This document shows, one piece after another, positions 3,266 to 64,000 of a stretch of 64,000 nucleotides of DNA. How positions within the stretch are numbered: the first letter of the stretch is position 1; every line of letters begins with the position of its first letter. A model generated the notes under the pieces. The model was given only the letters and a program-made list of their open reading frames with translations, was not told the DNA's origin and searched no databases. Source of the stretch: Mesaphorura yosii. Its lineage: Eukaryota > Arthropoda > Collembola > Poduromorpha > Tullbergiidae. The stretch spans positions 1 through 64,000 of the forward strand of contig WIXG01000242.1 in the NCBI GenBank assembly GCA_009869945.1, given 5' to 3'. A program made the translations under genes and the position numbers.

Positions 3266-5137
3266 CTTGATCAGCTGCGGCCAGTACCAAAGCGACTTGG
3301 GCGAAGCTTTGAACGGCTGGAGTCGACGTAACTGTTTGACTTAGTTTGATTTTTTGTCTGACTTGATCGAGACAGACAGAAAATTGCAACTTGCAAGTGC
3401 ATTAAATATTGTGCATGCTGCATTTGAACATGAACATACCCAGCTTCTGTATTACCGTAGAACATTTGAGACTTGTGTTTGAAAATGTACCTTCTGATTT
3501 CTGAAAAGGAATTCATGGGCCCCAGTGGGAAGTTGTTGGCTTTTCTGTAAAACTTCGCGAGAATAACTTGCACTTACTTGTCTGTGTATGGCACAGTCCT
3601 CAATAACACAGCGCAATTAACCTTGGACAAGAATGAAGATTGCTACACATTATGTAAATTATTGATCATTTTGAGTTGTTCTTTCCTGAATCTCAACTCA
3701 AAACCACGAACGCGTGACATTAATTATTAAATCAAGTCAAGATTCGACAATAATTACTTTGACTCCTCCAATTCTTATGTTCTAAGTGCTAATTTATGAT
3801 TTGAAGCTTTTCAACTTCATGCTTTAATGCTTTACAAAACAAAATACCACAGACAGGCATTAAATGAGCGTTGACTTCTTGTTGTGCTCATGAAAAGTTG
3901 ACTTTTCTTGTAAACCACGGAACTATACTTTGCACTAGTCGATGTGCCTATCTTCAAAGCAGAGGAACATGCAAACATGCTGATTACAGAAGAATATACA
4001 TCTCAGACGGGAAATTTGAGGATGAGATTCTTAACTGTTCGTACCCTGTAATTATCAACCAAAGACTCGAATCGCGTGATCTTAAGTAAATCGCCCAACA
4101 TCGGCAAGTCCTGTAGACTTAGGTAGACTCTTCCAAAAGGAGTTGACAATGACAGGACTTGCGGGATTTTCATGGAAAATTTTAAGTTTTGCTGCTAATT
4201 CAAGAATGCAGTCGGAATCAGGGAATTGACTTTTTGTTGTGTATCGTGAAGTATCGCTTGCCTTGATTAAACCAGTTACCAGTCTAATCACACAGCTCCG
4301 AAATGAATGCGAAGCTGAAGGTCATAGACTTAGATGTGGATTCGCTGTTGCAGCGCAGCGGCTTTTGCGTGCTCTACAAGAAAGCATCGTAGCATAACCA
4401 TAAGCAAACTGTAACATTAAAAACTGAATCCAGCAGCATGTTATATAATTATTTTACCAGGTTGCAAAAATTTCGGCGCGTGTCCACGTGTGGCGGGTCC
4501 GTTTCAGAAGGTGGCTTCCGTCAATTGTTTACAAAGTCTGCGTAAACAACACATAAAAAAAAATAATGGCCGCAGAAGAGCAATAGACAAAGGCAGACAC
4601 CCTCGAATGAATTGATGGAGGAAACTGGAAATCAAAATAACCAAAACAGTGCAACGAGTCTGGAAAAAATCTCACGAGACAAGTTTTTGACTTTATGCAA
4701 CCGACTCGACAAGACTTGTGAGTTCGCAGTTCGCATGGGCGACTCATGAGCGTAGTGGATCCAAGATTTCAAGAAATACAATTCAACAATGTCGACTCGA
4801 CGCTATCTTAAACTACAAAAATCCACGTTGGACTCGCAGAGAAATAAATTTCACATGTTATGCAGTGAAAAATGGAAAGAATGAAAACGTGTAAAATATC
4901 AAAATGTCCCGTCCGGAATCAACTAAATTGAAATAATACGATCTTTCAAATATAACTCGGTTTATTATTGAAATATTTTCTAGAACTATTTACAACGAAA
5001 ATAAATATCTAAACAATGGTAAGCATATTTACAGGCTAACTTACATATTACATTGCATTTTGGAAAGAAATAATACCATTCGGTGGCTTGTCTTGTGGCT
5101 CCCACAAATTTTTTTACAGACGTCTTGTCCGATTAGA
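3266..5137. other. Intergenic, no gene seen
   Basis: A/T-rich spacer between the chemoreceptor pseudogene and the secreted-protein gene. The open frames here are short, lack splice-consistent partners and resemble nothing I know. Confidence 0.6.
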
Positions 5138-5752
5138 TCATCCCTGACTCACGATGTAATCGCCTATCAATCTAAACAAGTAATTCCAGTACTGATTCCA
5201 TATATCGCTTTGGTTCATTTCCTCGTCATATTTTGAAAACGTCTCGAGAAAATTCAGCTGTGCTTTCGTCACGGCGTTATTCTCTCCGTACGTCGTGGAC
5301 AGCAGCCAGCTTAGAATTCTGGGGTAGTCTTGCTGCAGGTGATGCACAAGTTCGGCCAGATAGGCTTTGGCCTGTGCTTGCACGTCGGGATTGCTTCGAC
5401 TGATATTTTCCAGGAAGTCATCGCTTGTCTTGGACCCGGCCAACACTTTTCTGAACTTAATTAGGCCGGATTCCATTGTTCCCGGCTCGGCTTCGTGCAG
5501 ACGCTCATAGAAGGCGATAAGTTTCGGGCTCAGAGCTTCATTTTCCACCTGACAGCAGAAATTGGCAAATTAGATCAAGAAAGGTATGAGCGCCCAACAG
5601 GTGATCCGAAATTGACCTACCTCCAGGTCCAGCTTGCTCTTGTCCCCAGAATCCTTGCTCAGCGGGGCCGAACTGACGTTTCCTACTGTGATCGTGAAGA
5701 GAAGCAGCAGGACCGGGAGTTGAATTCGCATAAGAGCAGAAATGGCACTCAT
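5138..5752 (-). CDS. Secreted Cys-free protein, unrecognised family (copy A)
   Basis: Exon 1 (5752-5621, 44 codons) encodes a signal peptide (core LPVLLLLFTITVG, probable cleavage near VSSAP) and a short charged linker. A phase-0 intron of 72 bp follows, and exon 2 (5548-5138) encodes 136 residues, so the precursor is about 180 residues. The mature part has no cysteine and looks helical. It shares LSPKL, KFR..L..SK..D.FLE, LSW, FLE.FS..DEEM and a terminal WN.YW.Y....GD.I signature with the gene at 9118-9966. I do not recognise the family. Secretion is well supported by the signal peptide; function is unknown. A T/A-rich TATTTAAAG element lies about 100 bp upstream on the minus strand (5857-5849). 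The gene sits between a chemoreceptor pseudogene and a chemoreceptor gene on the same strand. Confidence 0.75.
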
Positions 5753-7299
5753 CTTGATGGTTCCTGGATCTGGATATTGGCACTTGTACTGATTTGATTT
5801 GTTAACGATCTTGAAGCTGAATGAGTTGCAGTCCTTGGTGTAGTCACTCTTTAAATATGAACTGGATTAATAACTACGAGTGACTGGTCAGTGCTCGCGG
5901 TGCCGCCGTCTTTGTTATGTGCAATTAATTACAAGTTGTACTCTCCACTGCTCATCTTCTGCAATACCAGAGACGGCTACTGCTTTTTATAGTGTGAGGA
6001 ATCAAAGAAACAATTTCTTCACGTTCACGGTCGCGGTCAGAACAAAAAATTGCACCAAGATCGTTACTCACTTTGCAGTGGTCGTGGAACGTGGAATTTC
6101 ATTTCCCAGAAGGTTGGGTATGATAATTGAATTCAAAACTCGTCGGTGCGGTCTTCTTCACTGCTGAACTGCGGTTCTGGTACTGTAACTTTAATCTCTT
6201 TATTTATATCTTTGTTTATATGATCCTTTTTTATGTGTGCTTTGCGTCTCGATTAACTATTTTGTAATGAAATTAAAAAGTCAAGTTTACTACACATCGT
6301 AGTAAAGTGCTGGGTTTGTGTTACAGGGAAGTTCCCAAGGCATGTTTAGAATGTGGAATGACCGGGACGCCCAATGCCAATACCAAGCCATGTTGACAGG
6401 CTTTGGCTTCAAATCTTCAAACTTGTTTTCGTCTAGTCGTCTAGTTGACCGCTCGTCTCGTCGCCCACGGAATGATGGACGGCTGACGGCTACAGGTACT
6501 CAGCTACCGGCCTTTGCTTGATGAGACACCTCGCAGTTAATCATGGCGTTGAAGAGCAAAGACATCATCCGCGCGGCATCTTGAAAGGGATTTCCTCTTC
6601 TAATTCGCGTATTTCCTTTCTCTGGTGCGTAAAAAGAATAAATTTGTATAATCACGAGTGGATAGGCAAATTCCGCAGGCCTGGAGCGCTTTCGTAATTT
6701 CCGTTGATGATAGGGAAATACTCTTGTCAACCGCGAAAGCGCACTCGTCTCAGGGTTCCAACATTGGTCCAGTCGAGTCCAGTGTCAAGTCCAGTTCCCA
6801 GTAAAAACCAAAAACCTTGAATTCTGCATGCACATTCGAAGTCGTCTTGCATTGTCCTTGAAAGTGGAAGTAGACAGGTTGTTGTTAAGATCAGAACTCG
6901 TCGCCTATTAAGCTTTAGCTTATGAGAGATTTTAAGATGATCAAGGACTAGTTCCACATTTTGTTCATGTTCCTGGGAAAACCGAGCGGAGATTACTTTA
7001 TTCCATTTTGTTTCCAAGCAAAGCATTAAATGTTGAAGCGACTAGCAACAAGGTCCCATGAGCTTTGTTTCCTGTATTGCTGCATTCTGGTGTAATTTAG
7101 TCAGACCATTCAGCAAGTTCCCAAACGCCTGAAAAATCTCAGCGTTTAATTCCTGTGCAGCACTTCATAAATAGAATGGTTCATCCTTGATCCCACAGCA
7201 AATTGCAGCCTGTACTTGCTGTACGCGTCGCGTCTGCCTGGCACGGCGCGTGTCTTTATTTTCGGGATTTCACAAAAACAGAGTACTGGGATCCTAATC
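5753..7299. other. Intergenic, no gene seen
   Basis: Upstream region of the secreted-protein gene and downstream region of the chemoreceptor at 7300. The longest open frames (about 95-99 codons) lack a signal peptide, domain or splice context, and I regard them as chance. Confidence 0.55.
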
Positions 7300-8643
7300 T
7301 TATTTTATTGCTTTGTTAAACGTGAGCATAATTCTAATCGTGTAGATTGTTAACTTGTTAATAATTTTGAGGCTTGTGATTTTCCTGATGTAGCCATAAT
7401 GTCCGATCTTGATGCGAATGGGTGGACATGATCTGAGATACTTATCCAGAATTCGTCTGTCTAACCGGTCCATTTGTGGGTATTTCCACGTTTTCCACGC
7501 TCGCATCCACGCGCAAGAACAAGTCTCAATAAATCCAATCTGGTAGTACATGAGGGCTTGGGTGAACAAAGCCATCGCGGCCACCATGCCCAAAGGAACC
7601 ACCCCCATGCCTAGGTCGTTGATGTATTGTAGAAGGGTTATGTTGCAAACAATGTTGAGACCGACAATGATAGCGAGAGTGATTGGGTACGGATAAAGCA
7701 AGAGGGCGTCCATCTCCGCCTGAATCACTTGAAGGCATCGGTGAGTGAAGAGAGCGATGGAATGCTTCCTCAGAAGGTTGATTGTGTGCAGAGTGTCATG
7801 ACCTTCTTTCGTAAAACTGCAAAACAATGACAAATGTAATCAAAAATGCGGGCACTATACTAGAAAATTTATCTTACTTGAGTTCGCGCACAATCAGAAG
7901 CACTCCATAAATAAAAACGAGGAATATTGACAAAATTGGCACGAGGAACGACCACACGAATTGGCTCACAATCCAGAAGATGATCATGCCTCCGTCAAGC
8001 ATCTGGCTACTGACATTCATGTACGGAATCATTGATGTGAATACGAGTCGGCGATCATCTTGCAGGATTTCGAAATTGGCAAACACCATTGATGAAATGG
8101 GATGTGAAATTCCAGCCGCAAGCACCGCGCGCAGCAACAGCATCACATGTTTGTCGTACGATCGTGGACCTGATGCCCGATTTTTCCTCTTAATGTACAC
8201 AGCTAAATTGCCAATTTGAAACTGTTTGATTTAATTGGCTAAAAGTGACTTGTTAAGAACCGTTTGATTTTATTACCTTCAATCATTTCGAAGTAAGTCA
8301 TAAATCGATTGGTGAAAGAAATGACTTCGTCAATATTCATCATGACCCAAGTCATCATTACGAGGCCCAACACATAGCTCATGACCACCAGGATAAGCAA
8401 GCAAGCTAGCATCGGGTCCTTCGGGTACTGTTTCACGAATAAAAGCCACACTGTTCTTTCTCCTATCACAAAAGTGATTACAACAGTCGTGGCGATGAGA
8501 GCAGCACGAGCGAAGGCTCGATGCTTGCACAGAACTTGGCGCACACGTCGTGTCTTGGAATCCCAGCAGAAAGGAACACCAAACAGGTAGCACCCAAAAT
8601 TAATTGAGAAACCAAGTGTCTGAAAGGTGATGGGTGAGAACAT
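7300..8643 (-). CDS. Gustatory-type seven-TM chemoreceptor
   Basis: Three exons, 8643-8277, 8202-7878 and 7816-7300, with introns of 74 and 61 bp, give 402 residues. The protein is hydrophobic throughout. It keeps the family landmarks: MFSP.TF..LGF.INFG at the N-terminus, GERT.WLL in the second membrane segment, RCLQVIQ.E at the start of the last third, and RSCPPIRIKIG..GYIRKITSL before the last helix. It probably acts as a chemosensory ion-channel subunit, as known for the family; no ligand can be inferred. The intron after EMIEG is absent from the paralogues at 356 and 1973, while the intron after the REL/QEIR position is shared, so one intron was lost or gained in this small array. Confidence 0.72.
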
Positions 8644-9117
8644 CGTCAGTCAGTGAGTTGGAGTCGGTCAGGAACTGACGACTGACTGCTCATACGCACT
8701 GTAGCGCGATTTAAACTTAGAATACTTGGAAAGCCCTCCACTAGGCTGTAATCAATGGGAGTTACGTTGTTAGAAAATCGTAATGTCTCGAAAATCATGA
8801 CTACGAACGCAACTATAGAAAGATAGTAAAGAGCAATAATCTAATCAACATCAGCCGGAGACTGTCAGCCAGTTATTGACCACCCAGTTTATTGCCGTCG
8901 ACTTTCAATCGCAATTTTGGTAATTGCGAGAATGTATGAAATTGCGGTTATCAGAATCTGATTAATCATTATAAATTGAGGCTGAAAATGATATTTATTA
9001 CAGTTGCAATTGTTCGAAGTCGAAGTTAATAGGTACATTTTTTATTTACAATTGAATTATGTGACCGAACTCGCTGCCAGCGTGCTAGCGCGTTCTGTTC
9101 GCCGAGGTCCTTTGCAC
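8644..9117. other. Intergenic, no gene seen
   Basis: Short A/T-rich spacer between the chemoreceptor start and the stop of the second secreted-protein gene. I see no coding or RNA feature. Confidence 0.6.
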
Positions 9118-9966
9118 TTAACCCCACTTTGCAATAAAGTCTCCGGTAGACTGAAACCAGTAATCCCAATACCGGTTCCAGACTGGATACACACTCATTT
9201 CCTCGTCAATTTCAGAAAATTTTTCCAGGAATGAAAGCTTGCTGTTTGTTGTTGTTGGACGACCTCCGCCGATTGTTTGCAGGAACCAGGAAAGTACTTT
9301 TGGATGCTGTTCTGCAATGAATGAAGCAAGTTCGTTCAAGTCCGACTTAAACTGGAGAAGCTCCCTCGGATCGGCGTTAGTGGTCTTTTCTCTCCAAAGG
9401 GTTTCGAGAAATTCGTCTCGAGATTTGGACTGCAGGAGAATTTCACGGAATTTCAAGACACCGGATCGCAGAACGTCCTGGTCCAGGGTGGACAACCGTT
9501 TGTAGAGTGTGGCGAGTTTTGGACTTAGATGAATGTTCTAAAACCGGAATGAAAGAAGTTTAAAAAAATGAGAGAATGAATCATGAGCATGCATTTGAAT
9601 TTGTATTTGATTTATAAATAATTTGTCAGTGCTTACATCTAAATCTGCAAATTTATCAGGAGTCACCGACGGCGGCAACGGCAATGATGTGGCGCTTGAA
9701 ATCGAAGTTACTTCCACGTCCGTATTGGTCCCCTTTCCTCCTCTTTCCTCTTTCAGTATGGAAACTTTCCCAGGTGGTGACGGTGCGTCGGCTTCGTCAG
9801 TTACTCTCTCGTCCAGCGGAAGGCGTTCAATTGGCGTGTCTTCGTCATGGGCTTGAGTATCAGTTGACTCCAGAACCGAAATTGGATCAGCATCTTCAGA
9901 AATAGGAGCCGAGTACGCACTCGCCACTAAGAACGAGGAAAATACGACGAAAAGTAGAAACTTCAT
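9118..9966 (-). CDS. Secreted Cys-free protein, unrecognised family (copy B)
   Basis: Exon 1 (9966-9637, 110 codons) begins with a signal peptide (MKFLLFVVFSSFLVASAYS, then AP) followed by an acidic, Ser/Pro/Thr-rich spacer. A phase-0 intron of 99 bp precedes exon 2 (9537-9118, 139 residues), for about 249 residues in all. The exon 2 domain is a clear paralogue of the gene at 5138-5752: LSPKL at its start, GVLKFREIL..SK..DEFLE, LSWFLQT, FLEKFSEIDEEM and a terminal WNRYW.Y....GDFI. The first exons share only the secretory character and differ in length, so the spacer evolves fast while the C-terminal domain is kept. I chose the ATG at 9966 over an in-frame upstream Met because it begins the signal peptide directly. 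The role is unknown. Confidence 0.75.
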
Positions 9967-48291: not shown

Positions 48292-49820
48292 ATCGTTCAG
48301 CGGGAAGTTCTTGCCCAAGAATATTTATTAAAGCACAGTTGCAATTTTTCAACGCTGTAAAAGTGTTCCATCAATAGTAAAATTTGAAACTCAAAATGTT
48401 TACTACTTGTTGCAAGCTCGAGAATCTGTGAAACTAAATTGAAAGTACAACAATAAAGCCATTATTTTATACAAATCGGCAGTCATGTACAGTTAATTTG
48501 ATGAAGTTTTCAGCCTAGGATGGCTGTGAAAAATGTTGCAACGCGTTTTAGTAATAAAGGCACTAAGTGAATTGATTGTTTGTTTGCAGATAGATTGCTT
48601 CCAATGAAATGTTCCGATACAATTATTCCGAGACAGTTGTTTCCAATGAAATGTTCTGATACAATTATTCCGAGACAGTTGTTTCCAATGAAATGTTCTG
48701 ATACAATTATTCCAAGACAGTTGTCAATGAAATGTTCCGATATAATTGTTCCAAGTAAAGTGTTGCACGACATTCGCAATGCCCACGATAAATTACATAA
48801 CGTCGTGATTTACCATTTTAAACGTAGATACGTGAACTTTTAACGCGCATTAGTGGCGTGGCTTCAGTTCAGTCGCAAAACAGTCGGGTTGCCAAGTTTC
48901 ATCATGGCTTGCTTTTGCAAACTTTTGCTGGATGTAACATTTTGCAAAAGCTACTCTGCAAAATTGTGGACTATGACAGAATTGTTTCAGTTTACCCCTT
49001 GCACGTTCTTAGTTTTTGTAAAGTCTGTAAGCAATGAGTTGTACTTATTTCATGAATTTTGCGCTACAAGCTGCATACGACTCGGCTGTTTTTGGTTGCA
49101 TTGCTTAATTTTAACCGAAATAGATGATTTTAATGGTAATACTGGTACCCGAATCTGAGTTGAGGCTGCGAATGATAACATGGGAAATGTTGAACCGGTT
49201 ATCATCATCCTTGTCCGTTGCTCACGATTCGAACGAAAAAAGGGATGAAATATTGTCAAAGTCAAAGTTGGCCTTGAATCTTGAGAGCTGAGGAGCTCAA
49301 GCCGGGATGAGCGCATTAGTCATGCCTTGCAAATTTTATGAGTTGGTGCTCCGTGCTCAGTGTAGATAAATCCATAACATAGTACGAATATTGTACGCAA
49401 TCGCATCGTATCTGGAACGTTTAGTTTAGTGTTACTTTATTACATCAACTTTTGTGCCTAACGACAATCGTTTAGTATTTAGTATCCATTTGCAGTTGTA
49501 GATTGGTTAACGCATCTCGCTCTTGTAAGTTGGCTTGCTTGTCGCTAATTGCAAGTTTCTAATATCACACACTAATACCATTTCATTGCGTAGGATTCCT
49601 GGCGAATGTGATTGTGAGGCTTGCAACACGTTGGTGCACTTCTTGAATTGTCGTTTCGTTCGATTGAGGTGGCTAATTTGGTGCCCTGACTCCTGACAAT
49701 TCGAAAGATCTCCTTGTAAGTCCTCTCGCTACTATTCTCGTCCGTCTTCTGATCCATCAAAACACTGCTGTTGAAATAATTGTTAGGTGAAGCTCTTTCG
49801 TCCTAAGTTCATCCAAGGCG
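48292..49820. other. Intergenic with a tandem repeat
   Basis: Holds the 42-bp tandem repeat at 48599-48755. No gene is otherwise supported; the right end is probably the 5' leader of the long intronless gene. Confidence 0.55.
48599..48755. repeat. 42-bp tandem repeat, about 3.7 copies
   Basis: Copies start at 48599, 48641 and 48683, with a partly decayed fourth near 48724. The unit begins TTCCAATGAAATGTTC and contains ACAATTATTCC. Because 42 is a multiple of three, both strands stay open across the array (14-residue periodic translations), but I see no gene start, signal peptide or splice context that makes it coding. Confidence 0.9.
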
Positions 49821-52800
49821 ATGGACCCCGTAACACTGGAAAAGCTACAAAGCAGCCATGTCAAACTTGGTGAGAAGCACAAACTACTTAACGATTTTCT
49901 ACGTCAAGCCAAAAAGAATCCGACGCTGGCAGAAGGAATACTGAATCAGAAAGATGCTACAGATTTCTATATGAAGAAATTGCGGTTTGACTTAATCTTG
50001 ACCTTGCAACGTGAAGACCTGTTGATTGATTTGTTTAACTCCGACGAGAAGATACTTACTTCAACAATATCCAAGAAAGGACGCCTCACCTGGATCTTTT
50101 CTAAGGAAGGATCTCGGTTTTTGGAGCCGGAATTTTTGGTCAAAGAATTCTTCCCAAAGCTATCCTATCTTACACGCTTGAAATTCGTCAATCAACTAGC
50201 AAAACATGTTTCAGACGAAAAGAGATGTCAGCAAATTTTCGAAGCTATTCGATCCGAATTTGGCTTGAAGTATGCGTCGCGTTTGTTACCAAATTGTTCT
50301 CCACCTTTCATTTCAAAGATTTTGGCAACCAACCGCGTGAAGAATGTGAAGACATTCTTAATTCCAATAATCGCCAAGAAACATCCACAAGTGGTTTTTG
50401 AATACATAAAAACAGCATGGAATATTGAACGCAAGAAGTTGGAATATTCGAATAGCAGGCCAGGGTATTCACATGAGTATGGAGTCATCCTCAGAAAACT
50501 AGCGGGCCAAGACTTGAAGCAATTTCTGGATTTGTATGAGTCAAACCACAAGGAACTGTCTGGACTTCACATTGGATATTTGTCACGACATATCGTGAAG
50601 AATCATTTGGATCGAGTGTTGCAACTGCCAATTGTCTATTCAGAATTGGTCAATACAAAGGATATATTGGAGCTGGAAAAGGAAACCCTCGTCAAGTTCC
50701 TGCTACCCTTGATGCCAAAACGTTTCTCAGATTTAAATGAGAGTCCATTTCACAACAATGAATGCAGACGGATTCACTGTTACTTGGGAGAACGTCTTCC
50801 TGCCGACGTATTTGAGCAACTCATTGAAAAAGGGTACCCAGGCCAAGACGTGGTCAAGGAGAAGAGTGACATCATTTCCCAGACCATCGCTTCGTATTTT
50901 GGCCCAGAAGCACGACTTTGCATTGCTGAACACCATCTTCAAAATGCGACTATCACCGGAAGTGATTGCTATGCATGGATTTCCCTGAAACCGACATCAA
51001 AATCTATTCCCGAACTTAAACAGCTTCTGTTCATCGAGTCTGATGCGAATGAGAGACAGAAACTGATTTCCGCATTGTTGAAAACTTGCAATATCAATGG
51101 CGATAAAGCTGCGCTCTTGGAAGTTATCACATTTCTCGTTCAGAGATACAGGAACGATCAAATCGATATCTTGGCGGCTATTATTACCGAAATAGAACAA
51201 TTCCCAAAGTTGTCCAAGATTGGAAATGAGCATTGGGATACAATCAACGCGCTCGTGCAATTCTGCCTTCTTCATCCAATGGTTGATCGAATTAAGTGGC
51301 GGTTGCAAGCGATGCTGTACAAGCTGTTTGCAAACATGGCTGAAAGAGACCTGCCACTGGAAGCCATTACAGAAAAGATTTTCGAGATCTCGTCAAACTA
51401 TTTGAACTTTCCACACCTCAGCGGGTATGGAATGGCGGTGCAAAGAAAATATATTGAAGCCTGCGGCGCGTATTATTCCAGAACGTACGGGGATCGTATA
51501 GATGAAAATAATACTAATGAGCAGTTTGTGGCCTTGCAAATTGGAGAGGCCATCAAAACTTGGAATATAACTTATCGAAAAGTCAAGTTGTCTGTCGACC
51601 AGTTTCCTGCTCTGAAGAAAAAGTTTCTGGGATTTGCTGTTCAAGATGAGTACCAACTCCCGGCTCACACGCGCTATCAAATACTGGAAATTTGGAAGCA
51701 TGACCCTGGGCTTAAGAAGGAAACGTCTGTCATTTACAACTCATTCATTAAAGTAGCTCCATCCGAAAAAGTTCTCCGGTACTTCTTACTGCATAACCCA
51801 AAAGCAATTTCTGACCATCTGGATGCTGTTTTCAAAGGCGTGACTGAAAGAAGGACGGGAGATTTCTTTGACAAGTTTTTGCGTACTCTCAAGGAGCACT
51901 GCTACAAAGACATTTATACTCGACTGGTCGAAAAAAGCCTGTTAATGCTTAAGAAGAAGGATCTTTCCAAGGACGAGTTGTCACAAATATACCGAATCCT
52001 GCCGTGCTATCAAACATCAGCCTGGATGGTGGACCACGTGAAGGAATACATTCCAAAAGAACCCAAAATAGATTTGCAAAAGGAGAATGTGCAGCAAGTA
52101 GTTCAGCGTGTGGAGTACGGCGTCCGCTCTCTTTTGCGCATTGACCACCCGTCAGCGGGATTGGAAATAATCAAATCATTTTGCGTAGGCGACTATCTGA
52201 AGTACGGCCGAGATGTTTTGTATTCGCTCTGTGAGCACACCCAAGCCCCAAGAAGTTTGGACTTGGTTTCAACAATGCTGGACTCGCCAGTGTCCGTGAA
52301 GAAGCATGCCATACGCATTTTCTTTACTCTGACACTGGAACCGGAAAAGAAGGTGGCCTTCCTGGAGGACGTCTGGAAACAGGAAAGCCAAGCTTCGAGC
52401 AACGTGTCAATTCGCCTTGTTCTGGTTCAGCACACGATTGATTTGATCCAGTTTGAAGCAGAAGGCGCCGTGCTGGAGAGAGCCAGGGATTTCCTGTTGA
52501 ACACAATGATCCTTTCACTGACCTTCAAAGATAAGGCAGCTCTGGCAGAGGTTGTTGGACATTTTGATGGCATAAGCTCCCTCGTTTCTGGAAAGCCACA
52601 AGAGGATTTCTTGCTCTCAACGTTCGAAAAATTGCTTGTGTCTCAAGAAAATCTTCCTCCCGTCGAGCGCTTCGGCGATCCCATCAAATTGAAGCTGATC
52701 CAAACCATTGGCGAAAACCATTCTCGATTGTCCGATCAAACTCTGCTACAGCTCTGCCAGAAGTACTTCTTCCCTCCCAATGATTTGGGGATGGAAGACC

Positions 52801-53567
52801 AATTTATCGAGTATTTTGTAAGAATCCTGCTGCTGCGAGACGAGACGACGGTCACTGTGCTTCTTGCTGAAGTGCTGAAGAAGTTGACCCACGTGCTGCA
52901 ACTAATTGCCTCGCCTTCTCACCAGCCCGCGTCCGCCGCGAAGAAGAAGAAAGGCTGTGAGCTCGAACTTCGCCAAAGATTCTGCTCGTTTTTCAAACGC
53001 CTATGCGCCGAATCCTTTCAACGAAAAAAGCGAGAGCGAGAAAGTGTCAAGAATTGCGATAAATACACCAGTTTGTTCAAACGCATATTCCAGAGTGATT
53101 TATTGAGGAAGAATCCAGCCGATACGTTTGACAAAAGCCTCTGGATGCAACTGGCCATTATCTTCCATTCCAACGAAGGCAAACATGCCCAAATTGGGCG
53201 AGAAATCGGCAAGACACTGAATGAGTATGTCGGGAAGTATGGGAATGACATCGTGGCGGTCTTCATCGAGAACCTTAACCTTTTCTTGAGAACAGCCTGC
53301 GAATCCGAATCTGAGCAGTCTACAAAAATGCAACTCGTCCAGGGGCTAATCAATTCCGAAGCCGATGCTCCTGCTGGTGACAACGCTACTGCAAAACATC
53401 CTATACCCACGGCCGTAAGAATTGTGGCGCTCGACCTTCTTCCAGCAGATTGTCCAGAAGATTTCGATACAACAGTATATGTTCAGGTTTCAAAAGCCCT
53501 GTTCACTCCAAAATCCGAAGTTGAAGCGATTTACATAAATCATTGGAGGAACAAGCATTCAACATAA
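49821..53567 (+). CDS. Large intronless gene, alpha-solenoid-like protein of unknown function
   Basis: A single uninterrupted frame of 1248 codons starts at the first ATG (MDPVTLEKL). I do not recognise a named domain. The protein is hydrophilic and almost entirely helical in character, with repeated amphipathic pairs of about 35-45 residues, which suggests a HEAT/ARM-like or similar solenoid scaffold. There is no signal peptide and no membrane segment. A very basic patch (AAKKKKG, then QRKKRERE) lies around residues 1035-1075 and could bind nucleic acid or act as a nuclear signal. Every multi-kilobase neighbour has introns, so an intronless frame of this size is unusual and could reflect retroposition or recent gain. 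AATAAA at 53708 is a likely polyadenylation signal. The frame is certainly real coding sequence by length; its function is unknown. Confidence 0.8.
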   Translation: MDPVTLEKLQSSHVKLGEKHKLLNDFLRQAKKNPTLAEGILNQKDATDFYMKKLRFDLILTLQREDLLIDLFNSDEKILTSTISKKGRLTWIFSKEGSRFLEPEFLVKEFFPKLSYLTRLKFVNQLAKHVSDEKRCQQIFEAIRSEFGLKYASRLLPNCSPPFISKILATNRVKNVKTFLIPIIAKKHPQVVFEYIKTAWNIERKKLEYSNSRPGYSHEYGVILRKLAGQDLKQFLDLYESNHKELSGLHIGYLSRHIVKNHLDRVLQLPIVYSELVNTKDILELEKETLVKFLLPLMPKRFSDLNESPFHNNECRRIHCYLGERLPADVFEQLIEKGYPGQDVVKEKSDIISQTIASYFGPEARLCIAEHHLQNATITGSDCYAWISLKPTSKSIPELKQLLFIESDANERQKLISALLKTCNINGDKAALLEVITFLVQRYRNDQIDILAAIITEIEQFPKLSKIGNEHWDTINALVQFCLLHPMVDRIKWRLQAMLYKLFANMAERDLPLEAITEKIFEISSNYLNFPHLSGYGMAVQRKYIEACGAYYSRTYGDRIDENNTNEQFVALQIGEAIKTWNITYRKVKLSVDQFPALKKKFLGFAVQDEYQLPAHTRYQILEIWKHDPGLKKETSVIYNSFIKVAPSEKVLRYFLLHNPKAISDHLDAVFKGVTERRTGDFFDKFLRTLKEHCYKDIYTRLVEKSLLMLKKKDLSKDELSQIYRILPCYQTSAWMVDHVKEYIPKEPKIDLQKENVQQVVQRVEYGVRSLLRIDHPSAGLEIIKSFCVGDYLKYGRDVLYSLCEHTQAPRSLDLVSTMLDSPVSVKKHAIRIFFTLTLEPEKKVAFLEDVWKQESQASSNVSIRLVLVQHTIDLIQFEAEGAVLERARDFLLNTMILSLTFKDKAALAEVVGHFDGISSLVSGKPQEDFLLSTFEKLLVSQENLPPVERFGDPIKLKLIQTIGENHSRLSDQTLLQLCQKYFFPPNDLGMEDQFIEYFVRILLLRDETTVTVLLAEVLKKLTHVLQLIASPSHQPASAAKKKKGCELELRQRFCSFFKRLCAESFQRKKRERESVKNCDKYTSLFKRIFQSDLLRKNPADTFDKSLWMQLAIIFHSNEGKHAQIGREIGKTLNEYVGKYGNDIVAVFIENLNLFLRTACESESEQSTKMQLVQGLINSEADAPAGDNATAKHPIPTAVRIVALDLLPADCPEDFDTTVYVQVSKALFTPKSEVEAIYINHWRNKHST

Positions 53568-57297: not shown

Positions 57298-58653
57298 TTA
57301 CTTCTCTCTTCTGTAAAGTGCATCAATCACATTTAAGAAAGGTTCTTGGGGAATTGACAGTGGCAGGGAGTTGATTTTTGTCAATATTTCATTTCTCTCG
57401 TTGTCTTCATGTTTGTAAAATAATTCTTCAAGCGCCAAATCATCGTAAATACTCTTCACCACGTACTCAGCTGTACCGCTTGGTTGGCCATAATGTTTTT
57501 GCAGCATTAGAATTTGCGATTTCGAAGCCAATTGGAGCGCCTTCACAATTAGCCAGGTCAGCTTCCCGTCCCGTATGTCTGTACCCACTTTCCCGGTGAT
57601 TTCCGGATCTCCGTAGCAGTCCAAGAAGTCATCTTGAATTTGGAATAATTCACCGATTCTCAGTGTAATATCTTCCATATCATTTAAGCACTCTTCGTCG
57701 TCAATTCCGACCTGCAATTAGCAATTCGTAACTATTCGCGTTTAGCACTGTTTCAGACGACGTTTCCGACATAAGACTGGTGAGTTTCTTACACGAATAA
57801 ACGCATTCGCCACGGGCCAGACAAATGTATAGTGGCTGGTCTTGTATTTCACGAGCGCCTTGTACGTTGCTACGGTGAACCTGAACATGAGGCATGAAAA
57901 CCATGAAATTAACATTCAGACAGTACATCACACTTCTCGATCATTGTCCCTTACATCCTGAAATTCGGCCTTCCATCGCCAGAAACTTTCAGATCCAACG
58001 ACTCCCCGAGGGCGGTGTTCAGGCAGCTCTTATGTGTATATTCCATAAACTTCAAGAAGTAATGTTGTTCGGAGAAATATTTGAATATGATGTAGTTTGC
58101 AAAATGGCCCATTAGGAATGTGTCATTAATAGCTCCTAACCCAACATCATCGCGTTTGTACCAACATGGCATTCCGCGTCTCGTCTCTGAACGGTCCATA
58201 ATGTCGTCTGCTATCAAAGCACTAGCTTGAAACTGCCGAACAAAAGTCAAAGGAATTGAGTGCGGGTTGCGGCTAAGTAAGTAAGTTGAGTGTAATGTGT
58301 GATGGCTTACAATTTCAATCATCCAACCGCTAACATAGTTCAGAAAATCCTCCTCCTCAGTACGCTCGTGTTTCAGGCTTCGATACATGAAGATGCTGAG
58401 GTACGCCCTGCAAAATATTAGTGGGATAAGGAGAACTTTGACCCAGGTCGGCTGAGACGCACACACGGACTCACCTCGTTTGTTTCCCGAACGGAACATT
58501 TCTCTCCAGCACGTCCACAAGTTTATGAACTTTATCTGAAATGTCTTTAAATTTAGGCTCGCCCAAAATGTCATTCAGAAGAATTTGCCACACTCGCTTA
58601 AATTCTGCCTCCACCTTCTTATATTCCTCCTTAACTTTCGCTACGGTACTCAT
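57298..58653 (-). CDS. FPPS-family prenyl diphosphate synthase, enlarged chain-length pocket
   Basis: Five exons (58653-58475, 58407-58311, 58232-57955, 57880-57793, 57711-57298) give 351 residues, the usual FPPS length. Enzymes of this family condense IPP with allylic diphosphates. Catalytic and substrate residues are all present: FGK.TR, the FQA Gln, DDIMD (101-105) with SETRRG, KYKTS, FQIQ then DDFLD (241-245), GTDIRDGK and the terminal YRREK. At positions -5 and -4 before the first Asp the sequence is Ser96-Ala97, where C15-specific FPPS has Phe-Phe. In avian FPPS those changes lengthen the product, so C20 or longer is expected. TATAAAG at 58776-58770 (minus) is followed 31 bp on by a TCAGT initiator. 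The gene heads a cluster with a microbial-type terpene synthase and two more paralogues. Confidence 0.92.
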
Positions 58654-60211
58654 TTCAGAGTTTCAAGTGCTTGGTGACGAAGGACAATTGAAATCAGTAA
58701 TCAGGCGACAAAGCGAATGAATCTCGCAAGTGAATTATCTCGACTGATTTGAGGTGGTGAGCCGCATGACTTTATATCAGAATCCCGATTGTGATTAGGG
58801 AATACCTAATTTCTGTGTTTATAATGTGCATTTTAATGACTACGTGTCAGGATTCACGGAAACATCGTAAACAACGCAATAGAAAATAGAACCGTATATT
58901 CCCCAAAGCGAGTTCGCCAAACTTCCCATACTATTCAGTTGATACGGTCTACAGACGCTGTTGAAGTTTTCATCTTCGATAAGCCATCCGACCTGAAAGT
59001 TTCCACTACTAACCATAAAAATGAATGGGTAATTTGCAGAGACAGATAAAAAGCCATGAGAAAAAATTAATTGTAATGTCTTTACTCCAGCTTTTAAGCC
59101 AGTCTTCACGACGTCACCTACTTGCGCCAGTGGCGATTCTGGTTCAAGAGGGCACAAATTTTGAAATTGCACAGTGTACAATTGAAGCGTTTTGAGTCAT
59201 TTTAATGATATTCAATACAATAATGTAAATTGCGAAACTGCTTGTTGATCAATGGTCGTCGGACGCACTTTTCGTGAAACATTGTTTCAACAAAAACCCG
59301 AAAGACCCGAATGCTTTTGTTTTTGTCTTCCTAGATCTTATCAGGACCAGGTGTGTGGGAAGGCTCTAATTACCTTAACTCGAACATATTATTAATTACA
59401 TTATAAGTGTGAAAATCACAGGTTGTGTTTGAAGAAATTAGTAATTCAAAGCGTGGCAAAATGACTTTGACCTTCGGATTGCTGAAACTTGAATGGAAGG
59501 TTGGCGTCGGGCAGATTATTCCAGGCCTTCGGGCTCTGGCATTCGAAAATATTTACTCGATAATATTTGTTTTTGCATGGCTCTTTGGAAAATTTAGAAT
59601 CTCCAAAATACACAAAACCAAACTCCGTGGATTCTCTGCATAATTTATTGAATTTACTGAAGCCGCAGTTAAGGGCTTGAGTGTGTCTCAATAGTCATAA
59701 ATACACGTGGAATGTTTATGACGAATTTATGCTCCTGTTTTCCGCGTTAGGCTCATAAACATTGACCATCTAACATCCTGGAGGATTTCTAAAGAAGTTA
59801 GAAATCTGGAGATTGGCGAAGGCGAGGGATTTGAGTGGTTCTTTGGATTACGAAATGTTTACACACCCCCAAGTTGTACCGTAAATTCGCAATACGGCAG
59901 TAAACACTTTGGTGATTGCGAATTCTGAAATTCTCGCACATAAACCATAAACCATCGCCAGCAACTGTGCTGGGCGCTACACATGGAGCTCGTTGGTGGA
60001 TATTAAGTGCTTGCTAAAGTCGCACACGTGTGTTTAGTAGTAAAGTAACTTTCCATGAGACTTGTTTATATAATACACTTTATAAACTTGGGACATCATC
60101 CATATTTGCCACATTTCACGTCGTTGGACTTGCAAGTATTTTGTACTCAAATGAACAAGTTTGTCTAAAATAACATTTCTGAACAAGTTGCGGACTTTGA
60201 GGCAGTTCAAT
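58654..60211. other. Divergent spacer between synthase genes
   Basis: Contains the promoter of the prenyl synthase at its left end and that of the terpene synthase at its right (TATA-like TATATAA near 60068 and TATAAAC at 60081). A 113-codon minus-strand frame (58840-59181) is open but unsupported. A five-codon upstream ORF (ATG at 60151) precedes the terpene synthase start. Confidence 0.5.
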
Positions 60212-61432
60212 ATGGGTGACAGCACACCAACCGTGAACAAAATTCAGCCAACCATATTTTCGCTCCCGGAAGTGTCCAGCGATGACCTGGAAATAGAAAC
60301 AATCTCTGACTCCGACGTGAAATTCGTTCATTTCATCCTGCGAAACACTTCTGACGACGGAGCGATCCTGCGCGGAAGGATTCCGATGATGCGTCCACCC
60401 GAGAGCTATAAGCTTCCAGACCCCCAAGCCCTGCAAGTTGGAGTGCAATGGGTCGAAGACTGGATGCTGAAGAATATACTGCTTCGGAAGCACGAAACGG
60501 AAAAGCTGGCCAAGAGTCGCCAAATTGCGCAGGATTTGTTCATTCTCTTCGCGTTCTGCGTGCCCGAGCAATCCCTGGCCGATGAGCAAGTTTACAGGCT
60601 GATAGCGGGACTTCAGCTCATCTTCGTCGTGGATGACATCATCGAGGAAACGAATCTGCTAGGAAGAAATCAATCTATGGGCATGCTGGCTGCAAATTAC
60701 ATTGATCAGGTGTTGAAGGGAAATCACGAGTTCAATCCGGACGAAAACGTGTTCCCATCGCTGAGGAAGGCCGCAAGAGCAGGGCAAGAGCTGATCAAAA
60801 AGGCGCAGGAGTACTCGCCAGATTTTCATTCAAGAAGTGTCCACTTTGCGAATGCCGTGAAGGAAACGTATTTTGGCGTGTACTTGCTGCAAGTGGCTGA
60901 TGCAAAACCTGTCGACGCACTGGTGGCTTCAACTTCTGGCGAGGATGGTGATGAAAGAATGTCAGAGGACATTTTTGTCTACTTGAGACGAGCAGACGCT
61001 GCCGGGCTCCCGGCCATTGAAATCGCGCTCTATGCTAAAGAAATTAACTTACCAGCAGAAATTCGCGACAATCTCTTCTTCAAGAAGTGTTTGGAGGTTG
61101 TGCAAGAGACTGTTGGCCACCAAAATGATTTACTGGGATTGGAGAAGGATATCAATAATGACGAATGGAACATTGTCTTGTTCAAGGTAAAAAAGTACGG
61201 AATTCCAATGCAAGACGCTTTTCAAGCGGTGATTCAGCTTGTGGAGAAATTAATGAAGGAGTTTGTGTATTTAAAGTCAAGACTTCTGAGACTTTACCCG
61301 GACAATGAAGATCTGGAAGAGTTTTTTGAGATTGTGAGCTCCATTCTGGATGCGAATGGATATTTGCTGCTGTACACCGAGAGACATGGCGACTTGCGGT
61401 CAGCGTTCACGAAACTCCAGGCTCGAGCCTGA
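60212..61432 (+). CDS. Microbial-type class I terpene synthase, intronless
   Basis: One exon encodes 406 residues from the ATG at 60212 (MGDSTPT); the open frame extends 17 codons upstream but begins there with TTG. Class I terpene synthase marks, numbered from this Met: the metal-binding DDIIEE at 141-146; LRRADAAG with the pyrophosphate-sensor Arg259 and linker Asp262; the second metal motif NDLLGLEKD at 305-313 (NSE form with Gly for Ser and Asp for Glu); and ERHG with Arg391 where bacterial enzymes have the RY pair. The sensor is 46 residues before the NSE Asn and Arg391 is 86 after it, the spacing known from bacterial cyclases. The enzyme should cyclise a prenyl diphosphate to a terpene. 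It is not related to the FPPS fold-family members beside it by motif order. AATAAA at 61502-61507 suggests expression as a host gene. Lateral origin is inferred. Confidence 0.93.
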   Translation: MGDSTPTVNKIQPTIFSLPEVSSDDLEIETISDSDVKFVHFILRNTSDDGAILRGRIPMMRPPESYKLPDPQALQVGVQWVEDWMLKNILLRKHETEKLAKSRQIAQDLFILFAFCVPEQSLADEQVYRLIAGLQLIFVVDDIIEETNLLGRNQSMGMLAANYIDQVLKGNHEFNPDENVFPSLRKAARAGQELIKKAQEYSPDFHSRSVHFANAVKETYFGVYLLQVADAKPVDALVASTSGEDGDERMSEDIFVYLRRADAAGLPAIEIALYAKEINLPAEIRDNLFFKKCLEVVQETVGHQNDLLGLEKDINNDEWNIVLFKVKKYGIPMQDAFQAVIQLVEKLMKEFVYLKSRLLRLYPDNEDLEEFFEIVSSILDANGYLLLYTERHGDLRSAFTKLQARA

Positions 61433-61501
61433 ATTTCGTCGTCCATTATTCTTTAATCCTTAACTTGTCTTTCTTAAAGGCAACAAACTTAATAATATGT
61501 G

Positions 61502-61507
61502 AATAAA
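61502..61507 (+). promoter_or_regulatory. Polyadenylation signal of the terpene synthase gene
   Basis: AATAAA 70 bp downstream of the stop codon, inside the short gap before the convergent prenyl synthase gene. Confidence 0.6.
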
Positions 61508-61544
61508 TTGGATTACTGCTAAAAACCTTTTACTATGCTAATTT

Positions 61545-62877
61545 TTATTTGTCTCTTCTGTAGATGGCATCCAGCGCATTTAAAAATGGTTCCTGCGGAA
61601 TTACATGAGGCAGAGCTTTAATGTCTGCCACTATTTCCAGTTGTGTCGCGTATTCATGCTTGTAAAACGTCTCATCGATTCCAAGTTCGTCGTAAATCCG
61701 CTTTATCTCACTTTCCGAGGTACTGGGAGGCTTTCCATAATGCTTCTGAATAGTATTTATCTGAGACTCGGACGCCAAGCTAAGTGCTTTCACAATCAGC
61801 CATGTCAGTTTCCCGTCTCCGATGTCCGTGCCAACTTTGCCAGTGATTTCTGGATCTCCGTAGCAGTCCAAGAAATCATCCTGGATTTGGAACAGTTCAC
61901 CAATTTTCAGAGTGATTTTTTCGACCGCGCTATGACAGCCTTCATCTTCGATTCCAGCCTGGAATTTAGACAATTCAACCTCACTTTCTCACTGATTTTG
62001 TTCTTCCTTTCGCTTACCCGAATCAATGCATTTGCAACGGGCCAATGAAATGTATAGTAGCTAGTCTTATACTTCACCAATGCTTTGTAAGTGGATTCAG
62101 TGAATCTGTGGAAGTCAACACCCGGTCACGTTCACGCCAATTCAGATTATTAAAGAGCTCTCAGGAAATGATCACCCACTTGCTAAAATTGGATGTTCCC
62201 TCATTGGCCATTTTCAAGTCTAGCGATTCCCCCAAGACGGTGTACAGATTGTTGTACTGATAAGCCTCCAAGAGTTTCAGCATGTAATCTTTGCCAGAGA
62301 AGTATTTGAGCATTATATAATATGCAAAGTGGTCCATCAGAAACGCATCATTCACAGCCTTCATGCCGATGGCGGCGTTCTTGTACCAGCATGAGATTCC
62401 TCTTCTCGTTTCCGATTTATCCATGATGTCGTCCGCGATCAATGCTCCAGCCTGCAGCTGGTTGACAAATGAAGGTATAAATCACCTTATTTATTGAAAT
62501 TATTTTACTTGTTCATATCAGGCGACGTCAACTTACAATTTCTATTATCCATCCACTGATGTAGTTCAGAAATTCATCTTCCTCAGTGCGTGACGGCTTC
62601 AGGCTCTTGTACATGTAGACGCTGAGGAATGCCCTGGAAAAATAGCAATCACTGGTAAAGTTAGTCTGGATTCTTGCCAAAGGCTTAGCTTTTACCTGGT
62701 CTGTTTTCCATGCGGAACGTTTTTCTCGAGAACTTGGACAAACCGGTCGACACTGCTTCGAACTCCTTTCAAATCGGGATCATTCGATAAATCATCGAGA
62801 AGTTTTGCCCACGTCTTTCTAAATTCTACTTTGATTTTCTCAATTCCCCGTCCATCACCTGTGGAATTCTTACTCAT
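61545..62877 (-). CDS. FPPS-family prenyl diphosphate synthase, enlarged chain-length pocket (paralogue 2)
   Basis: Five exons (62877-62696, 62633-62537, 62457-62180, 62105-62018, 61958-61545) give 352 residues. Exons 2 to 5 have exactly the same lengths (97, 278, 88, 414 nt) as in the gene at 57298. All substrate and metal residues are kept: HGK.TR, LQA Gln, DDIMD (102-106), SETRRG, KYKTS, DDFLD (242-246), GTDIGDGK and the terminal YRRDK. Residues -5 and -4 before the first Asp are Gly97-Ala98 in place of Phe-Phe, which opens the chain-length pocket even more than in paralogue 1. Product length of C20 or more is inferred. The ATG at 62877 is preferred to an in-frame codon ten positions upstream by comparison with the paralogue. 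A TATAAAG lies at 62987-62981 (minus). It is convergent with the terpene synthase. Confidence 0.92.
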
Positions 62878-63785
62878 GATTGAGATTTCAGAAGGTGCCC
62901 AAAACAATTTTCGTAAAATAGCTTTTGTGTATCAAGAAACATTCATGAATGAATAAACGACCGTGAGCTCCCTGTCTAGTCTTTATAGTAGCACTGATGA
63001 TGTAATGAATTTTATCAGGAATTCTGCAGGTAATTTCATTTTGATGATTTAAATGACTTTTTTTATGCTTCCTGCTTGTTTTTCACAATCATTGAGTTCG
63101 TAAAAATGTTATTAACACATAAAACGAGAGGCGCTTGCTTGCGTAAGACCATTCTTCTTCTTGTCTATCCTACACGAAGACGAAAGGCCCAGATTCTTCC
63201 ATGTCTCATTAACCTGGAGTAGAAATCACTTTCCATCGTTGATGTTGATGTTCTATCGTGAATTTCTTTTTACAATTAACGTGCTAATTGAGTGGATTTT
63301 CACAAGACTCAACCAGGCTCGGGAAGTACAAAGAGTCGTGAAACATGGGAAGCACTTAAATTTAATGTCGCTGTCCTTTTGCTTAGCATTTAATCGATGA
63401 ATAATTTTGACAATTTGTAACGCGCATACTATAATTGCTATACTATAGTTCCTTCTGCACTTGCACACATGATTTCCCGAAATTAAAGATGAAGGCGAGT
63501 TTCATTATTCATAAAACATCGTGTAACGAAATGTAGAAATGTAGCTGCGTGCCTGAATGCAGCATAAACTTCGCACTTTCCTTTCACATGACCGACCACG
63601 AGCCCATAAAGTATCTTTCCTGTCGTTGGCGTATTCCAAAATATCACAAACGGGATTTATGGAACACTTGAACATGGATCATTTATGGGTGTGCATTGTA
63701 TTTATTGCAATCGTTCATCTCAGAACAGAGATGACCAAACACGACATAGAATTTACTGTATTAACAAAACAAATCTGCGGAAATT
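62878..63785. other. Spacer between synthase genes, no gene seen
   Basis: Promoter region of the synthase at 61545 and downstream region of the next paralogue. Open frames are short and unsupported. Confidence 0.6.
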
Positions 63786-64000
63786 TTATTTCTCTCTTCT
63801 GTAAATTGCGTCCACAACATTCAAGAACGGTTCCTGAGGAATGGTGGGTGGCAACGACTTAATATCCGTCAATATTTCCAGTCTCGCCGCGTCCTCATAC
63901 TGGTAGAACAGTTCTTCGATTCCAAGATCATCATATACGCGTTTCACTTCTTCCACTCCGACAATGGTTGACTGTCCGTAATGCTTTCGAAGAGTTTCTT
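63786..64000 (-). CDS. FPPS-family prenyl diphosphate synthase, C-terminal part only (paralogue 3)
   Basis: The window ends inside the last exon of a third paralogue. The visible part reads ETLRKHYGQS, then VYDDLGIEELFYQYED, then IPQEPFLNVVDAIYRREK and stop, clearly matching the C-termini of the genes at 57298 and 61545. The chain-length residues and Asp-rich motifs lie beyond the window. There is no internal stop in the visible part. Its presence shows the cluster continues to the right. Confidence 0.9.
   Translation of the reverse strand, partial: ETLRKHYGQSTIVGVEEVKRVYDDLGIEELFYQYEDAARLEILTDIKSLPPTIPQEPFLNVVDAIYRREK

Follow-up and report, generated by a model that had tools for sequence, protein, structure and literature searches.

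The window analysed here comprises the first 64,000 bases of a contig of 120,802 bp (hereafter C242) from the springtail Mesaphorura yosii, whose assembly amounts to 93.0 Mb in 1,127 contigs. At its right-hand end lies a compact group of genes, three of the FPPS family (IDS-A, IDS-B and IDS-C) and one terpene synthase (TPS), that occupies positions 57298-65065 of the contig; this TPS-IDS cluster spans 7.8 kb and ends beyond the window, in place of the 6.7-kb extent given by an earlier sequence-only reading of the same DNA. From left to right the order is IDS-A (-), TPS (+), IDS-B (-) and IDS-C (-), with the following features:

57298..58653, - strand: IDS-A, FPPS-family gene; spliced model with GT-AG introns, start and stop; PF00348 in both fragments
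58653-58475, 58407-58311, 58232-57955, 57880-57793 and 57711-57298, - strand: the five exons of IDS-A
58654..60211, no strand: divergent intergenic region between IDS-A and TPS, 1.56 kb
60212..61432, + strand: TPS, class I, intronless, 406 aa; PF19086
60632..60646, + strand: TPS metal motif 1, DDIIE (DDxxE), from an alignment of 12 paralogues
61124..61150, + strand: TPS metal motif 2, NDLLGLEKD (NSE/DTE type), from the same alignment of 12 paralogues
61502: AATAAA, after the TPS stop
61545..62877, - strand: IDS-B, FPPS-family gene; GT-AG spliced model; PF00348 in both fragments
62695-62634, 62536-62458, 62179-62106 and 62017-61959, - strand: the introns of IDS-B
63786..64000, - strand: 3' end of IDS-C (whole gene 65065-63786 on C242, stretch L009); gene model with start

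The divergent arrangement of IDS-A and the TPS is such that the region between them (58654..60211) could hold a shared promoter, and on its other side the TPS converges with IDS-B at a stop-to-stop distance of 113 bp. Exons of a Rab/Ras-type GTPase lie immediately to the left of the cluster, and two open reading frames that flank it (441 aa, L009:1329-2651; 1,258 aa, window 49791-53564) gave no Pfam match.

The TPS frame (414 aa) matches PF19086 with an E value of 4e-12 and 46.8 bits, against a curated cut-off of 23.7 (Pfam, six window sequences); among PDB entries it is best matched by presilphiperfolan-8-beta-ol synthase (E 3.4e-7), and NCBIfam returned seven weak matches, every one far under cut-off. 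Metal motif 1 reads as DDxxD/E by virtue of DDIIE. Motif 2 can be set beside the NSE/DTE consensus (N/D)Dxx(S/T/G)xxx(E): in NDLLGLEKD a Gly occupies the Ser/Thr place and Asp replaces the last Glu, with the Asn invariant in all 12 aligned paralogues. The C-terminal RY pair, a variable and secondary feature of terpene synthases, is absent from the window TPS, which has RH instead, and is kept in 10 of the 12 aligned paralogues. As predicted from these features, the gene is an intact microbial-type class I terpene synthase, and the initial recognition of such an enzyme beside FPPS-family genes is borne out by the above-cut-off PF19086 match, by metal motif 1 and by the variant form of motif 2.

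PF00348 was matched by four of the five IDS fragments of the window (E 5.8e-18 to 4.7e-23; Pfam), the fifth, a 70-aa IDS-C piece truncated at the window end, giving no Pfam match. IDS-A is 63% identical to IDS-B and 58% to IDS-C, with the IDS-B/IDS-C identity not above 58%. The reference points for these genes are two further family members, C71 and C284, which we infer to be the housekeeping FPPS genes. All four introns of IDS-A and of IDS-B coincide with those of C71 in place and phase, hence we interpret the two as host duplicates; C284 has three of the four intron places, and IDS-C has one fewer, having lost the first intron. In a tree of eight IDS proteins, whose root was placed by hand on C71 and C284, these two are split from IDS-A, IDS-B, IDS-C and the genes at C99, C116 and C144 (hereafter the derived clade) with support of 100/100; the node uniting IDS-A, IDS-B and IDS-C likewise receives 100/100, and two intermediate nodes receive 93/91 and 90/93. 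The C144 gene model includes a 39-bp intron and deviant intron places, and its details are not to be trusted.

Alignment places DDIMD at the FARM and DDFLD at the SARM of both IDS-A and IDS-B, which also retain TRRG, KYKTS, FQIQDD, TGKVGTD and a basic C-terminus. Retention of these conserved blocks is expected of chain-elongating enzymes, and IDS-A and IDS-B are probably able to elongate prenyl chains. The two genes depart from the C71/C284 type at positions -5 and -4 before the FARM, where C71 and C284 read F,F and the derived clade carries smaller side chains (S,A in IDS-A; G,A in IDS-B; S,V in IDS-C; A,A in both C99 and C116; S,C in C144), such that IDS-A and IDS-B lack the bulky -5/-4 residues by which a strict C15 FPP synthase is recognized. 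The closest PDB structure to IDS-A is the IDS 8a6u (E 2.8e-78; avian and human FPPS score about 1e-73), which we take to be a beetle GPP/FPP synthase; this structure reads S,L at -5/-4, and a small -5 residue alone is therefore no proof of a long product. In IDS-A and IDS-B small residues stand in for the two phenylalanines that hold avian FPPS to a C15 product, from which a product of C20 or longer would be predicted: avian FPPS altered at both phenylalanines makes C20 and longer chains (PMC10563020) that stay below C50 (PMC7887238; the literature is represented by excerpts of the papers cited, here and below). Taken together, these residues tip the balance slightly towards a product longer than FPP for IDS-A and IDS-B.

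IDS-C differs in its catalytic apparatus. It presents TDIMS at the DDxxD place and YDFLD at the DDFLD place, and so lacks both Asp-rich motifs while still being homologous to the FPPS family; in addition, its RRG is broken by three additional residues and the Gly of GKxxR has become Glu. The frame is nevertheless open and interrupted by three GT-AG introns. Nonsynonymous divergence (NG86) is 0.30 from IDS-A and 0.31 from IDS-B, with dS saturated or not computable against IDS-A and 3.4 (NG86) or 1.6 (YN00) against IDS-B; these values and the open frame point to an old, retained gene, dN/dS itself having been rejected as a measure on account of the saturation of synonymous sites in most pairs. 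IDS-C is very likely incapable of chain elongation, to judge from its residues, and we do not count it as a working prenyl synthase since its metal-binding aspartates are lost. The earlier description of three prenyl synthases must accordingly be reduced: homology to the FPPS family holds for all three genes, the third being only partly in the window (63786-64000), and the enzymatic designation does not extend to IDS-C.

A genome search located TPS-like places on 12 contigs, at least 18 in all (a hand-compiled list; TPS counts from this search are lower bounds). Ten TPS-like proteins were scanned against PF19086 and seven passed the cut-off, with C116b, C246 and C556d falling short. The longer TPS-like frames at C1022 (577 aa) and C581 (447 aa in the part examined) score above the PF19086 cut-off, and six or more TPS-like genes stand in an array at C556:1-10000 and C556:10940-11365, with GC of 0.518 in C556:1-10000, higher than that of C242. 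In a TPS tree built without C1022, C581, C964 and the sixth C556 gene, the C242 TPS and one of two TPS-like genes on C116 (C116a) are nearest paralogues with support of 84/85, a pairing that is not starred and in which C242 sits on a long branch. The C116 region contains the following features:

C116 67026-67676 and 67756-68598, + strand: C116a TPS, one intron (coordinates of the open frames)
C116 71636-72966, + strand: IDS of the derived clade
C116 73979-75073 (L016:3979-5073), + strand: C116b, TPS-like, open over 365 aa, DDxxD and RY lost

C116b reaches 22.6 bits against the PF19086 cut-off of 23.7. C116 is thus a second TPS-IDS locus, at which a derived-clade IDS sits between two TPS-like genes, and the original proposal of a gene cluster on C242 gains strength from it.

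The question of whether such neighbours could have met by accident was addressed by calculation. Under uniform placement, the probability that at least two of the four derived-IDS loci lie within 5 kb of any of the 18 TPS places is 2.9e-5 (7.1e-5 if the calculation is made for two of six FPPS-type loci). We regard as fairer the value obtained with C242 excluded, since this was the discovery locus; the chance that one or more of the three remaining loci would be so placed is then ~0.7% (genome share 0.0022). Of these three (C116, C99 and C144) only C116 is linked to a TPS, there being no TPS in the 10 kb around each of the derived-IDS genes C99 and C144 and none listed on those contigs. Genes with predicted substrate-making and product-forming roles are physically linked beyond chance at C242 and C116.

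The main rival explanation is that the genes are chance neighbours, a mobile TPS copy having arrived in a tandem FPPS array, with the FPP or GGPP substrate of the TPS made elsewhere and IDS-A, IDS-B and IDS-C serving some other role. The distribution of the two families lends this a certain weight, in that derived IDS genes occur on just two of the 12 contigs with TPS-like places (at least 18 places) and the derived-IDS loci C99 and C144 are unlinked; against it stand the recurrence of the same pairing at C116, with the low probability calculated above for the three remaining loci, and the nearest-paralogue relationship between the TPS genes of the two loci. We consider chance adjacency somewhat unlikely.

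Gene structures, motifs, paralogy and two-locus linkage are readings of the DNA itself; the mode of action that we propose from them is as follows. IDS-A and IDS-B, as altered FPPS duplicates, would extend an allylic starter with IPP into an all-trans prenyl diphosphate of a predicted length of C20 or more; the TPS would bind the diphosphate together with Mg2+ via DDxxE and NDxxGxxKD, ionize it, and then cyclize or rearrange the chain. IDS-C would most likely act as a non-catalytic partner (e.g. a size-modulating subunit) or have an altered function. We lean towards IDS-A and IDS-B feeding the neighbouring TPS, and the locus as a whole is, by a modest preference, best described as a specialized-terpenoid mini-cluster of the host genome. 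Several observations weigh against this reading: the unlinked loci C99 and C144, the S,L of the best PDB match of IDS-A, the RH and the final Asp of motif 2 in the C242 TPS, the loss of DDxxD in C116b, and the absence of cytochrome P450 genes from both C242 and C116 among the 92 of 306 candidates scored.

Two other roles for IDS-A and IDS-B have to be weighed against substrate supply. The first is that they are themselves insect-style, FPPS-derived terpene synthases (as in flea beetles), with no part played by the microbial-type TPS; the acquisition of TPS function by duplicated FPPS genes is described as the commonest route in insects (PMC13143122), and the terpene synthases then known from Folsomia candida were flea-beetle-like (PMC6275457), but IDS-A and IDS-B have kept TRRG and the remaining IDS blocks along with both Asp-rich motifs, which makes this role quite improbable. 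The second, irregular prenyl-prenyl coupling of the kind that the branched springtail lipids nitidane and viaticene bring to mind, has in its favour the presence of irregular terpenes in springtails (PMC11129290, PMC11321324) and of a mealybug FPPS-family enzyme with irregular activity (PMC10960109); it is very improbable for IDS-A and IDS-B, whose motifs are those of ordinary IDS.

That the TPS segment might be foreign DNA joined to host sequence (by chimerism or contamination) is a practically negligible prospect: the TPS is intronless, with GC of 0.480 and third-position GC of 0.562 against 0.425 for the contig, but it is bordered on both sides by host genes with shared introns, the contig contains no N, GC runs at 0.40-0.45 over 56-64 kb (2-kb steps) and stays inside the range of the window, an AATAAA lies 3' of the TPS stop, the C116 paralogue contains an intron, and one prokaryote-genome scan, which reaches close relatives only, found no relative. 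Contamination and chimerism were rejected on the strength of the shared host introns, the second linked locus and the continuous sequence; the sequence-only reading, which had cited host-type introns to the same end, was right on this point, as the introns of IDS-A and IDS-B at C71 places testify, and there was no sign of a join (introns on both sides, no N). The idea that the TPS came from a close prokaryote source was also set aside, 30 pattern matches having yielded 0 relatives in the one scan, which covers close relatives only.

Genes of related interest were observed elsewhere in the assembly. On C1048 (a contig of 11.7 kb), positions 3801-9200 hold a TPS (PF19086, 52.8 bits), a short-chain dehydrogenase and two P450 matches, possibly a further terpene cluster with tailoring enzymes. 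On C420 a single NRPS frame (3,156 aa) contains three condensation-type domains, and the contig also gave three 2OG-oxygenase matches, one of them DAOCS-like (E 1.8e-112), and NCBIfam gave no name to either of the two C420 oxygenase frames scanned; NRPS and oxygenases together would constitute a beta-lactam-type gene group, with identity of the NRPS as ACVS putative. The beta-lactam genes ACVS and IPNS are described from Folsomia candida (PMC5200902), and the excerpted text of that paper contains no mention of DAOCS; the C420 genes would thereby fit a springtail source, for which a COX1 comparison gave no match. The C420 stretches have a GC of 0.527 versus 0.425 for C242, and could on that account be transferred or foreign.

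The mini-cluster can be considered alongside springtail chemistry. A survey found higher terpenes, e.g. [7]- to [9]-terpenes, in 16 of 23 species, some of them with sesquiterpene-like cyclic heads, and its authors propose the ubiquinone pathway as their source (PMC11321324); no gene for building the chain or cyclizing the head is named in the excerpted text of that survey, according to which Orchesella cincta and Sminthurides aquaticus lack cuticular terpenes. The nitidane core, for its part, is a prenylated diterpene (PMC11129290). A link between the locus and the C35-C45 cuticular terpenes of springtails is plausible as a candidate role. The specific proposal that the cluster makes cyclic-headed [7]- to [9]-terpenes (C35-C45), with the opened FPPS duplicates building the chain and the externally acquired cyclase closing the head ring, is unlikely as it stands; if true, the avian FPPS double mutant would have its natural equivalent in this locus and the published ubiquinone-pathway proposal for these lipids would be replaced. 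Pocket-opened FPPS duplicates with linked cyclases offer named candidate genes and a testable alternative to the ubiquinone pathway, and would in any case be an arthropod example of an acquired cyclase adjoining host substrate enzymes that have been re-tooled.

Several known systems share individual elements with this locus. Chen et al. are said to have reported canonical TPS in arthropods in 2024. Terpene gene clusters occur in octocorals, where terpene genes are likewise grouped, but in a distant phylum. Trombidid mites have large families of microbial-type TPS (PMC6275457), to which the M. yosii enzymes compare in being class I genes of bacterial/fungal type that form a multi-gene family in an arthropod nuclear genome; the TPS by itself is hence a further member of a published kind and is not novel. 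Where M. yosii differs is in the linkage between TPS genes and FPPS duplicates, seen at two loci. The Folsomia candida genome contains two terpene clusters identified by antiSMASH (PMC5490193), a likeness in the grouping of terpene genes in an animal genome. Among open-licence papers, judged by title and the start of the abstract, no report of IDS-TPS adjacency in arthropods was found among the top matches listed, and the linkage of TPS and IDS with a pocket-opened FPPS clade looks new.

With the FPPS of other animals, IDS-A and IDS-B share the family, the conserved blocks and the C71 intron places, and they differ in having small residues in place of FF, as does IDS-C in being without both metal motifs. 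The same two places are opened as in the avian FPPS F112A/F113S, which makes C20+ products (PMC10563020, PMC7887238); the avian protein is a laboratory mutant, whereas the residues found here (S,A in IDS-A and G,A in IDS-B) occur in natural genes. IDS-derived terpene synthases of termites and flea beetles (PMC13143122, PMC6275457) provide a parallel in that terpenoid enzymes arose there from duplicated IDS genes, but at the M. yosii locus, in contrast to those insects as excerpted, the likely cyclase is a separate gene of microbial type, and IDS-A and IDS-B retain their IDS motifs.
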